NCBI GenBank assembly: GCA_027068975.1
Contig: JALXFN010000074.1
Span: forward strand, 1-64,000
Length of the DNA: 64,000 nucleotides
Direction of reading: 5' to 3'
DNA from: Campylobacteraceae bacterium
GTDB lineage: Bacteria > Campylobacterota > Campylobacteria > Campylobacterales > Sulfurovaceae
Shown: one piece after another, positions 19,767 to 36,235 of the stretch
Position numbering within the stretch: the stretch's first letter is position 1
Layout of the letters: every line of letters begins with the position of its first letter
Translations under genes and position numbers: made by a program
The notes under the pieces: model-generated
The model's input: only the letters and a program-made list of their open reading frames with translations
Database searches by the model: none
What the model was told of the DNA's origin: nothing

Positions 19767-19975
19767 GTACATTAACACTAAGAATTCCTGATAGTAAGTA
19801 TGAGCGATTAAAAAGCTATGCCAAGAGCAAAGAGATTTCTCTTAACAAGCTTTTTGATGAGTTAGCCACCATTGCATTGACTCAATTTGATGCAAAAACG
19901 CGTTTTGATGTGATGGTAGCAAAAGCAGATAGGGCAAGAGGTTTAGAGCTTTTGAAAAAGCTAGATGACGCGTAG
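19763..19975 (+). CDS. Ribbon-helix-helix antitoxin partner of the PIN toxin
   Basis: A 70-residue protein. STLTLRIPDSKYERLKSYAKSKEISLNKLFDELATIAL is a clear RHH (CopG/Arc) DNA-binding unit; the tail ARFDVMVAKADRARGLELLKKLDD resembles the toxin-binding end of such antitoxins (typically 'F...A.rGd...gl..Ld'). It overlaps the PIN gene by ATGA. Its stop codon TAG at 19973-19975 lies inside a REP-like sequence, so the last codons may have been changed by that element's insertion. Confidence 0.82.
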   Translation: MSTLTLRIPDSKYERLKSYAKSKEISLNKLFDELATIALTQFDAKTRFDVMVAKADRARGLELLKKLDDA

Positions 19976-19995
19976 GATTCGATTGCCATCACACC
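19970..19995. repeat. Degenerate REP-like sequence
   Basis: This 26-bp stretch matches 21 of 26 positions of the arm of the REPIN at 35041-35145 (aligned to 35042-35067), including CGTAGG and CGATTGC.ATC.CACC. The ATAGCAAT at 19999-20006 also occurs in the complementary arm, so a collapsed second arm may follow. It covers the stop codon of the RHH gene and precedes the broken BrnA-like gene. Confidence 0.55.
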
Positions 19996-32903: not shown

Positions 32904-34169
32904 ATGATGGAAAAAATCCTTTTAGAACAAAATCCTCATTGGCAAGGTCAAATTAAAACTTATGTTAAGCGAGAAAAATTAACAGAACTTATTCTCTATC
33001 TACCTACACGACAAATCATTACCATTAGTGGCATACGACGATGTGGAAAAAGTACATTAGCCAAAGAGGCAATTAGACACCTCATAGAGAGTGGTGTTAA
33101 TCCATACAATATTCTCTTTGTTAACCTTGAACAACCCTACTTTTTAGAGTACCAACACGATGCCAACTATCTCAATACCATCTATGATGAGTACCTTAAA
33201 ATTGCAAATCCCCAAGGAAAAACCTATGTCATCTTTGATGAGATACAGTTTTTTCAAAATTGGCAAGTTTTTATCAAGAGTAAATATGAGAGTAGTGATA
33301 TTAAGTTCATTATCACAGGTTCAAACTCCTCTCTACTTTCCCATGAACTCAACACGCTACTAAGTGGGCGAACTCTAGGGATTCAGCTTGATACTTTCTC
33401 TTTTCAAGAATTTTTGGACTATAAGGAGATATCTTATAGTAGTCGAATAGAGAGAGTCAGCAATCGTATTGCTATTGCTAGAGCCAAAGAGGAGTACCTA
33501 AAATGGGGTGGTTTTTATGAAGTGTTTGATGAACCGAATGAGCTTATAAAAAAAGATATACTTATTAACTATGCGAGAAATATTATCTATCAAGATATTG
33601 TACCAAGGTATGGCATACGAAACTCTAGTGAGTTAGAGCGACTCTTTTTCTATCTACTCTCTAACGCCACAGGCATAGTAAACTACAGTAGATTAGCAGA
33701 GATTTTTGATATAAGCGACAGAAAGATAAAGGAGTATATCGGTTATTTTGAGGATGTTTTTTTACTTAGAAGAGTTGACCGATATCATACGAAACCAAAA
33801 GAGAGAATTCGCTCTGCCAAAAAGATATATGTTAAAGACAATGGTTTTTTACAAATCGCCCCAAAGCATTCAAAAAATCTAGGAATAGCTTTAGAAAACA
33901 AAATCTATAACATCCTTTATGCAAATGATGAGTCTGTAACCTATATGAGAGAGAAGTATGAGGTCGATTTTTATAGCCAAAAAATACTCTATCAAGTGGC
34001 ATATAACATAGAGGATGAAAAGACAAGAAAGCGAGAACTTGGTGCATTCAGATATTTTAAAACTGATGATACTAAAGCGTGTAGAGTGATTACGCTTGAT
34101 ACAAATGAGATGGTTGATGATATTGAGGTTTTGAGTTTTGATGTGTTTGTTTTAGAGGGGGAGATTTAA
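32904..34169 (+). CDS. AAA ATPase with DUF4143 domain
   Basis: A 421-residue ATP-binding protein of the AAA_14/DUF4143 type. Walker A is ISGIRRCGKSTLAKE (about residues 38-52), Walker B TYVIFDEIQFFQNW, sensor-like FIITGSNSSLLS, and the LSGRTLGIQLDTFSFQEFLDY segment that marks the family. After a winged-helix-like middle (FYLLSNATGIVNYSRLAEIFDISDRKIKEYI) the C-terminal domain ends with VTYMREKYEVDFYSQ, a PD-(D/E)XK-like nuclease fold in this family. Cellular role unknown. It overlaps the HNH gene by one base (TAATG). Confidence 0.88.
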   Translation: MMEKILLEQNPHWQGQIKTYVKREKLTELILYLPTRQIITISGIRRCGKSTLAKEAIRHLIESGVNPYNILFVNLEQPYFLEYQHDANYLNTIYDEYLKIANPQGKTYVIFDEIQFFQNWQVFIKSKYESSDIKFIITGSNSSLLSHELNTLLSGRTLGIQLDTFSFQEFLDYKEISYSSRIERVSNRIAIARAKEEYLKWGGFYEVFDEPNELIKKDILINYARNIIYQDIVPRYGIRNSSELERLFFYLLSNATGIVNYSRLAEIFDISDRKIKEYIGYFEDVFLLRRVDRYHTKPKERIRSAKKIYVKDNGFLQIAPKHSKNLGIALENKIYNILYANDESVTYMREKYEVDFYSQKILYQVAYNIEDEKTRKRELGAFRYFKTDDTKACRVITLDTNEMVDDIEVLSFDVFVLEGEI

Positions 34170-35035
34170 TGGAACTTGTTTATTTATGGGTTGAAGAGTA
34201 TAAAAACATTCATAATCAGGGGTTTAATTTTTCGCCTAGATTTTCTTGTGAGTATGATGATGTTGAAAACGAATTGAGCATTAAAGAGAATGATGACTAC
34301 ATAGAAAACTTTTTTGGTGAAAATTATAATTATCTTAATAGTTATACAAATACAAAGTTTTTTTTGCTCGGAAACGAAGGCTTTAGCCTCGCTAAGTTTG
34401 AAGCTGTTGCCTTCGATTCTGAAACTGAACGAGTTGATTATAATGCGTATAAATTGGTTAAAGATTTAAATATCTCTACTTGCCCCTATTGTAATCGTAG
34501 AACAATATATAATCTTCAAAAATCAAAAGGAAGAACCTCTGAAATAGACCATTTTTATTCTAAAGAGAAATATCCATATTTTGCTATCTCTTTTTATAAC
34601 CTTATTCCAAGTTGTAAAGTGTGCAACAAATTAAAAATGGAAGATGAGGTTGCGATACATCCTTATGAGAGAGGTTTTGAAAATACTAATTTTAAACTAA
34701 AAATTAAAGACTCAACCTTTTATCACTCTGTTAATGGGTTTGATTTGGAGTTTAAAAGTAAAGATAACCAAATAGATAAGCAGATAGAAACATTTAAACT
34801 TAATGACCTATACCAAAACCACAAAGACATAATCCTAGAACTCATACAAAAAGAAGCTATCTACAATGAGAGCTATTTAGATGAACTTTTAACACAATAT
34901 GAGGGAACACTTTTTAAAAATAGAGAAGATTTACAACGGCTTATAAGTGGTGGATATGTGAGTGATGAAGAGATAGGAAAACGACCTTTATCTAAGCTTG
35001 TTAAAGATATTTCTGATGAGTTGGGGTTGATATGA
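34169..35035 (+). CDS. HNH endonuclease with a chimeric N-terminus
   Basis: A 288-residue protein. The nuclease core is clear: STCPYCNRRTIYN (C105, C108), SEIDHFYSKEKYPYFAISFYNLIPSCKVCNKLK (D127-H128, C149, C152), an HNH with a zinc knuckle, similar to PtuB-like nucleases. The first ~50 residues (MELVYLWVEEYKNIHNQGFN, FSPRF, YIENFFGEN) look like the opening of a PtuA/AAA_23-type ATPase, which normally continues into its Walker A; here the text switches instead to the HNH protein. This suggests a fusion by deletion. Translation is coupled to the DUF4143 ATPase. Defence or DNA-repair role is inference. Confidence 0.75.
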   Translation: MELVYLWVEEYKNIHNQGFNFSPRFSCEYDDVENELSIKENDDYIENFFGENYNYLNSYTNTKFFLLGNEGFSLAKFEAVAFDSETERVDYNAYKLVKDLNISTCPYCNRRTIYNLQKSKGRTSEIDHFYSKEKYPYFAISFYNLIPSCKVCNKLKMEDEVAIHPYERGFENTNFKLKIKDSTFYHSVNGFDLEFKSKDNQIDKQIETFKLNDLYQNHKDIILELIQKEAIYNESYLDELLTQYEGTLFKNREDLQRLISGGYVSDEEIGKRPLSKLVKDISDELGLI

Positions 35036-35040
35036 GAGCT

Positions 35041-35145
35041 TCCGTAGGGTGCGATTGCTATCGCACCATCTATTCAATATTCAAAACAAGATTTCAATTT
35101 TTCTTTATGCCTATTTTTGGTGCGATAGCAATCGCACCCTACGGA
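35041..35145. repeat. REPIN-like element: two inverted REP sequences
   Basis: Two perfect 28-bp inverted copies (35041-35068 and 35118-35145) flank a 49-bp spacer. Each arm contains its own hairpin, GGTGCGAT-TGCT-ATCGCACC, and an outer TCCGTAGG. This two-level symmetry is the definition of a REPIN, a mobile unit moved in trans by a REP-associated tyrosine transposase. It lies 6 bp after the HNH stop and before ribD. The 68-codon frame across it is a by-product. No transposase gene is present in the window. Confidence 0.8.
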
Positions 35146-35227
35146 TTTTTATTAAATCAAAAAAGCCAGTCTTTGACTGACCAATTTAAGAAGAGTCAAA
35201 TTGATACTATGAAGATGGAGAATTTTA

Positions 35228-36235
35228 ATGACAAATAACCAAATCTACATGACCCAAGCCCTAAAAAAAGCATGGCAATACCAACTAAGAACCTACCCAA
35301 ACCCAGCTGTGGGAGCATTAATTCTTTGTAACAATGAGATAATAGCCCTAGAAGCTCACCAAAAAGCAGGAACTTCTCATGCCGAAGTTTTAGCTTTTAT
35401 TTCAGCCTATGAAACCCTCTCAGGTAAAAAGATAGAATTTGATAGGTTTGATGCTCATAAAGCTCATGATTTTCTTTATACTTTGCCTCAAAACTTTTTT
35501 TCAGAATGTATCATTTATGTAACGCTTGAACCTTGTTCTCATGAGGGTAAAACTCCCTCTTGTGCCTCATTGTTGGTAGAGTTAAAACCCAAAAAAGTAG
35601 TTGTTGCTACACTTGACCCTATAGAAGGGCATGATGGGGGTTTGAAACGACTTGAAGAGAAGGGGATAGATGTTGAAGTTAGTGTTTGTGAAAAAGAGGC
35701 ACTAGAGCTTTTAGAGCCATTTCTAATTTGGCAAGAGAGAGCTTTTGTTCTATTTAAGATAGCCCAAACCTCAAATGGAAAGATTGGAGGAGGGTACTTG
35801 ACCTCTAAAGAGTCATTGACTCATGTGCATCAGTTAAGGTCAGTCTGTACCAAGATGATAATAGGTGGAAATACCGTTCGTGTAGATAGACCCACACTTG
35901 ACTGTAGGTTTACGGGTGATGATGCTCCTGATATTGTTATCTATTCTAAAGAGGATAATTTTGATAGAGATATTCCTCTTTTTTCTGTAAAAAATCGTAA
36001 AGTAGAGATTAGCAATATTTTAAAAGATTTTGATAGACCCTCTTTTATACTTATAGAGGGTGGTGAAGGGATGATAAATGCTTTAAAAGATAAAATTGAT
36101 TGGCTCTTGCAGTATCAAGCTCCTAAGCTATCTTCTCATGTCTCAAATTACTCTATAGATTTAAATTTAGAATTTCTATTTGAAGATAAAAAAGGGATTG
36201 ATTTGTTATTGTGGAGCAAGAGAAGTAAAAAGTAA
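35228..36235 (+). CDS. ribD: Riboflavin biosynthesis bifunctional deaminase/reductase
   Basis: A 335-residue RibD. The N-terminal cytidine-deaminase-like domain has zinc ligands in AGTSHAEVLAF (HAE) and VTLEPCSHEGKTPSCASLL (PCxxxGxTPxC). The C-terminal reductase domain starts about residue 165 with LFKIAQTSNGKIGG and contains TKMIIGGNTVRVDRPTLDCR and FILIEGGEGMINAL. It performs the second and third steps of riboflavin synthesis. The reductase domain is a little short, ending in a poorly conserved tail, common in this phylum. GGAG precedes the ATG. Confidence 0.93.
   Translation: MTNNQIYMTQALKKAWQYQLRTYPNPAVGALILCNNEIIALEAHQKAGTSHAEVLAFISAYETLSGKKIEFDRFDAHKAHDFLYTLPQNFFSECIIYVTLEPCSHEGKTPSCASLLVELKPKKVVVATLDPIEGHDGGLKRLEEKGIDVEVSVCEKEALELLEPFLIWQERAFVLFKIAQTSNGKIGGGYLTSKESLTHVHQLRSVCTKMIIGGNTVRVDRPTLDCRFTGDDAPDIVIYSKEDNFDRDIPLFSVKNRKVEISNILKDFDRPSFILIEGGEGMINALKDKIDWLLQYQAPKLSSHVSNYSIDLNLEFLFEDKKGIDLLLWSKRSKK

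Follow-up and report, generated by a model that had tools for sequence, protein, structure and literature searches.

The 105-bp unit that lies between an HNH-like gene and ribD in the 64-kb stretch of DNA analysed here (the window) can be regarded with high confidence as a REPIN, a non-autonomous element of two inverted REP hairpins, and presumed mobilization by a RAYT belongs to the explanation that accounts best for the whole. Its two 28-nt inverted arms (35041-35068 and 35118-35145) are 100% complementary and separated by a 49-nt spacer (35069-35117). The coordinates and the complementarity confirmed the first-pass annotation, which had described two perfect 28-bp inverted arms, each with its own hairpin, within a 105-bp unit in the gap between the HNH gene and ribD. 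Each arm contains GTAGGGTGCGATTGCTATCGCACC, in which a GTAG foot precedes an 8-bp stem closed by a 4-nt loop and which defines REP family A. The left REP is located on the plus strand at 35044-35067 (foot 35044-35047, stem 35048-35055/35060-35067, loop 35056-35059) and the right REP, identical in sequence and inverted, on the minus strand at 35119-35142, and the unit from GTAG to CTAC spans 99 bp (35044-35142). A search of the window with GTAGGGTGCGATTGCTATCGCACC at up to three mismatches returned the two arms as the sole matches, with 0 in dinucleotide shuffles, and the arms alone represented GTAG hairpins with a Watson-Crick stem of at least 7 in the 64 kb (shuffle mean 0.15). The feature list of the window also holds a degenerate single family-A REP, GTAGGATTCGATTGCCATCACACC (19972-19995, plus strand), with 3 mismatches and an imperfect stem. 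The 105 nt folded as single-stranded DNA gave -34.9 kcal/mol (z = -10.8). The REPIN starts 6 nt past the stop codon of the HNH-like gene (34169-35035, plus strand), which lies directly upstream and serves as context only; on the other side, ribD (35228-36235, plus strand; its name comes from an earlier note) served as the downstream anchor for the orthology comparison. A 68-aa ORF running across the REPIN (35032-35238) showed no Pfam family and was taken as chance.

Given two strong hairpins just past a stop codon and five T a few bases after the right arm, the REPIN could be read as terminating transcription in the gap that separates the HNH-like gene from ribD. However, a terminator scan gave no match at the arms and found only a separate weak terminator at 35164-35182 on the minus strand, and neither the GTAG foot and the head-to-head pairing nor the RAYT association and the same-sequence copies elsewhere would be expected of a terminator. 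We consider this reading very improbable; a side effect of the REPIN on transcription may nevertheless occur. No Rfam family was found at 34900-35300. That the arm pair is a chance inverted repeat is refuted, since the shuffle expectation was close to zero and the arm has genome-wide copies against a control of 0.

The host assembly (2.78 Mb, 146 contigs, 96% complete) holds about 37 copies of the family-A arm at up to two mismatches, with 0 in the reversed control. The stem variants of this family are compensatory (GTGCGAT/ATCGCAC, GTGTGAT/ATCACAC and GTGCAAT/ATTGCAC) and retain GTAG. Nine family-A doublets of 69-110 bp, all with GTAG outward, occur together with about two dozen singlets. A second family, family B (GTAGGGTGTAGWCCCCGWCTACACC), is present in 35 copies in the host (up to two mismatches, control 0) and in 44 and 40 copies in two sister species, and has its outer 8 bp in common with family A. 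Inverted REPs at short distance are over-represented: when close pairs of both families were considered, 17 of 18 were head-to-head and none was of mixed family. The REPs combine a GTAG foot at a palindromic hairpin with many dispersed copies. On visual inspection most of these copies appear intergenic, and one is located inside a RAYT gene. In 70 of 75 cases a pyrimidine directly precedes GTAG, which fits the cleavage at CT measured in other RAYTs (PMC8266576).

Six Y1_Tnp genes are present in the host genome, and among three that were scored against NCBIfam two lay far above the cut-off for REP-associated tyrosine transposases and one slightly below it. The RAYT on contig C137 scored 154 bits with NF047646 (cut-off 80) and 40 bits with PF01797 (cut-off 23). 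Its HuH motif and catalytic Tyr are intact, and in an alignment of 26 relatives H58, H60 and Y132 are invariant, as are W, Q, E and H among the residues implicated in GTAG recognition (PMC6006769), with R nearly invariant. The only PDB sequence match of this protein was 4ER8, the E. coli RAYT-REP complex, which was also the best PDB fold match for a model of a 93% identical orthologue. Inverted family-A REPs lie on both sides of the C137 gene, and a third family-A REP lies in frame within it, encoding a VGCDCY segment between HuH and Tyr that is found in C137 and in genome G165 and is missing from nine other relatives; in the fold predicted for the 93% identical orthologue, this REP falls within the internal stretch of lowest confidence. 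A second RAYT, on contig C6, has family-B REPs on its flanks, including a REPIN. Inverted cognate REPs are thus found at the gene in C137, in C6 and in most relatives. By analogy with known systems and from this association, dispersal of the REPs by their cognate RAYT would appear well supported. Separately, a third Y1_Tnp gene (C101, L052:2830-3642) lies amid GGAGCATGGACTTTAGTCCATG-type hairpins, which may represent a REP family of its own whose foot is GGAG.

The nearest named relatives of the C137 RAYT are nearly all from Sulfurovum or unclassified Campylobacterota, with a 45% match in Gastranaerophilales. From these relationships the host, a Sulfurovum-like sulfur bacterium, is probably a member of the Sulfurovaceae. 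RAYT loci are mostly flanked by GTAG hairpins of their own whose stems differ between RAYTs. Among 174 relatives, family A was found in every one of the 11 genomes whose RAYT matched at roughly 69% or above and in 51 of the 163 others (Fisher p = 6e-6, a value that overstates the case because the 174 genomes are not phylogenetically independent). Against this association, a RAYT of the C137 clade was not detected in at least 17 genomes that carry five or more family-A REPs, including G163 (53 REPs) and G167 (43 REPs). RAYT loss, leaving orphan REP populations, could explain these genomes, as could missing contigs or incomplete assemblies; the compared genomes are mostly metagenome assemblies. 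Together, the arm copies, a RAYT with cognate flanks, the head-to-head pairing and the co-occurrence of RAYT and REP indicate that the window element belongs to a genuine REPIN/RAYT system of the Sulfurovaceae. The REPIN-like reading of the first-pass annotation is therefore supported, and each check that it had proposed came out positive: the arm recurs across the genome, inverted pairs occur often, almost invariably with GTAG on the outside, a RAYT gene lies between copies of the same arm (C137 with family A), and related genomes hold both arm and RAYT. The opposite outcome that it had allowed for, a single arm with neither REP copies nor a RAYT in relatives, is not what the genomes contain.

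Its remark that the arm might be new to Campylobacterota needs correcting, as PMC3733652 records GTAG-tagged REPs in epsilonproteobacteria, including a Sulfurovum strain, and REP-type transposases are also known from this group (PMC6006769). REPINs, RAYTs, REPtrons, in-frame REPs in RAYT genes and differing REPs at orthologous RAYTs have all been published (PMC3116915, PMC2817692, PMC3686654, PMC3733652, PMC6006769). As in P. fluorescens SBW25 (PMC3116915), the elements described here are doublets of two inverted REPs, some 100 bp in length, which fold into a single long hairpin, and each REP family has its cognate RAYT; they differ in having tens rather than hundreds of copies, another arm sequence and a Campylobacterota host. 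Hundreds of copies are likewise reported for Pseudomonas (PMC2817692), beside which the copy number here is modest, a point that counts against the REPIN/RAYT explanation. With the GTAG-tagged families, 24 in number in PMC3733652, families A and B share the GTAG foot at a perfect short-loop hairpin, the head-to-head dimers and the location beside RAYT genes (REPtrons), a likeness at the level of the described features. The C137 RAYT resembles TnpAREP subclass 2.4 (Bertels group 4; PMC6006769) in the in-frame REP in its own gene between HuH and Tyr, the WQ motif and the Y..NNP motif. Assignment to this subclass was nevertheless rejected, given that its HuH is DHIH (DH or EH in aligned relatives) and not NH[IFV]H; its length is 155 aa against a median of 194. 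What the system adds is a well-supported case of a single genome that holds two REP families and a RAYT for each, from a phylum for which there are hardly any descriptions of these elements.

The less expected result of the analysis was an in-place turnover of REP families. Sequences flanking family-A elements were used to search sister species, blind to the content between them, and loci that had been picked for holding family B were left out of the count, being biased towards switches to B. Among the 19 slots that could be read in these content-blind searches, 10 showed a different REP family, 10 the same family and about 3 no REP, in each case in one relative or more (a hand tally with overlapping categories). 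In the slots on C21 and C84, the foreign element starts and ends on the same bases as the host element, between flanks that are about 89-95% identical. The junction is exact on one side in the C107 slot, the C74:93442 slot and the window slot, both junctions fall within about 5 bp in C30, and junctions are looser in C11, C31, C34 and C70, where the C70 slot of G167 holds a foreign REPIN within another repeat. At the C115 slot, a 96-bp REPIN faces a 29-nt double-foot REP in G164, a natural example at one orthologous slot of a step that PMC6006769 only proposed, and at the C68 slot the spacer is inverted in place in G164. In a second genus, the slots of the closed genome G064 are mostly conserved in the closed genome G066, whereas of the four G064 slots that could be read in G065, three are occupied by GTAG hairpins belonging to other families. 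Clean empty sites were few and their flanks ragged. Orthologous slots thus differ between species both in presence or absence and in family, which bears on whether a REPIN moves as a unit.

At the window slot itself, the shared ...TATGAGAGCTT is followed in G164 by an element whose arms read GTAGGGTGCCGTTTTC..., and in G165 ATPase, HNH gene and REPIN are all missing, so that the upstream gene runs directly into ribD. Since G167 carries family A behind the same HNH-like gene at another chromosomal place, with a recognisably similar spacer, the REPIN probably accompanied the HNH-like gene at the window site; it has no evident role in the protein of that gene. As a separate observation, the region 32904-35035 holds an ATPase (AAA_14/DUF4143, PADLOC PDC-S01) followed by the HNH-like gene. 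The product of this gene matches the ATPase PDC-M62A over its first 54 residues and the HNH partner PDC-M62B over the rest, and the gene thus resembles a candidate defence pair that a deletion has fused into a single gene.

How one family comes to stand in the place of another may be explained by the RAYT itself. The enzyme would recognise GTAG and its hairpin on the single-stranded element, would cut at the pyrimidine-rich dinucleotide adjoining GTAG and would then join or copy the element elsewhere; with less confidence, we suggest that the same cleavage at both GTAG ends could allow another REPIN to replace the resident one, so that slots outlast their occupants. RAYT-driven exchange at the GTAG ends is our preferred, still hypothetical, reading of the slot alignments, and on this basis we tentatively propose, at less than even confidence, that the REPINs here occupy long-lived chromosomal slots in which they are replaced end to end by other families, with the RAYT exchanging single-stranded cassettes at GTAG ends in addition to dispersing new copies. 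A close rival, itself quite possible if short of probable, is that the switches arise without the RAYT, by replication slippage, template switching or homologous recombination at the shared GTAGGGTG...CACCCTAC ends, or by import of the whole locus from another lineage. The outer 8 bp common to families A and B would serve recombination or slippage, and the spacer inverted in place and the REPIN facing a 29-nt double foot are what recombination or deletion at inverted arms would be expected to produce. Eight common bases are, however, short for RecA-type recombination, and at C84 and C21 flank identity stays at the level usual for the species up to the junction, which leaves room for only a very short imported tract. 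It is rather unlikely that the switches reflect repeated independent loss and re-insertion at favoured targets with no direct exchange. The strong pyrimidine preference before GTAG and the few slots that lack any REP in a relative agree with such a course, but a dinucleotide-sized target is far too common for a return to the same base, and REP-free slots are rarer than switched ones (about 3 vs 10 of the 19 in the content-blind set).

If RAYT cassette exchange is true, it would supply a mechanism for the REP orthoswitch (PMC3686654), a term under which the occurrence of different REP classes at orthologous positions of related strains was named, with its mechanism unknown and old dispersed REPs assumed to decay. 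The slots reported here are alike in this respect and differ in that the orthoswitch was described for REPs flanking RAYT genes, whereas here dispersed slots that lie away from RAYT genes switch family. They offer concrete orthologous positions at which REP family replacement can be studied. PMC3733652 mentions different REPs near the same site of recB in two Xanthomonas species, and no account of a whole REPIN being replaced at a dispersed slot turned up in the literature searched, which left most subscription papers outside.

In addition, a strict family-wide pattern of the GCCTTTCGGC module returned few copies, and the idea that this module represents integron attC sites was dropped, as no attC features were recognised by eye. 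A conserved module of about 45 nt, AGCCTTTCGGC..TTTTATTTTATGC.AAT..TT..TTAAY, adjoins REP arms of several families (L017, L024, L108, L266, L461, L463, L464, L468) and is conserved while the REP arm changes; one related copy occurs within the spacer of a REPIN in another genus (G064:C1:1477929). At L039 (C107:3000-8500) and L042 (C138:21200-25200), module-bearing REPs recur every 850-900 bp in one direction in a cassette-like fashion, and these arrays adjoin small gene pairs resembling toxin-antitoxin modules.
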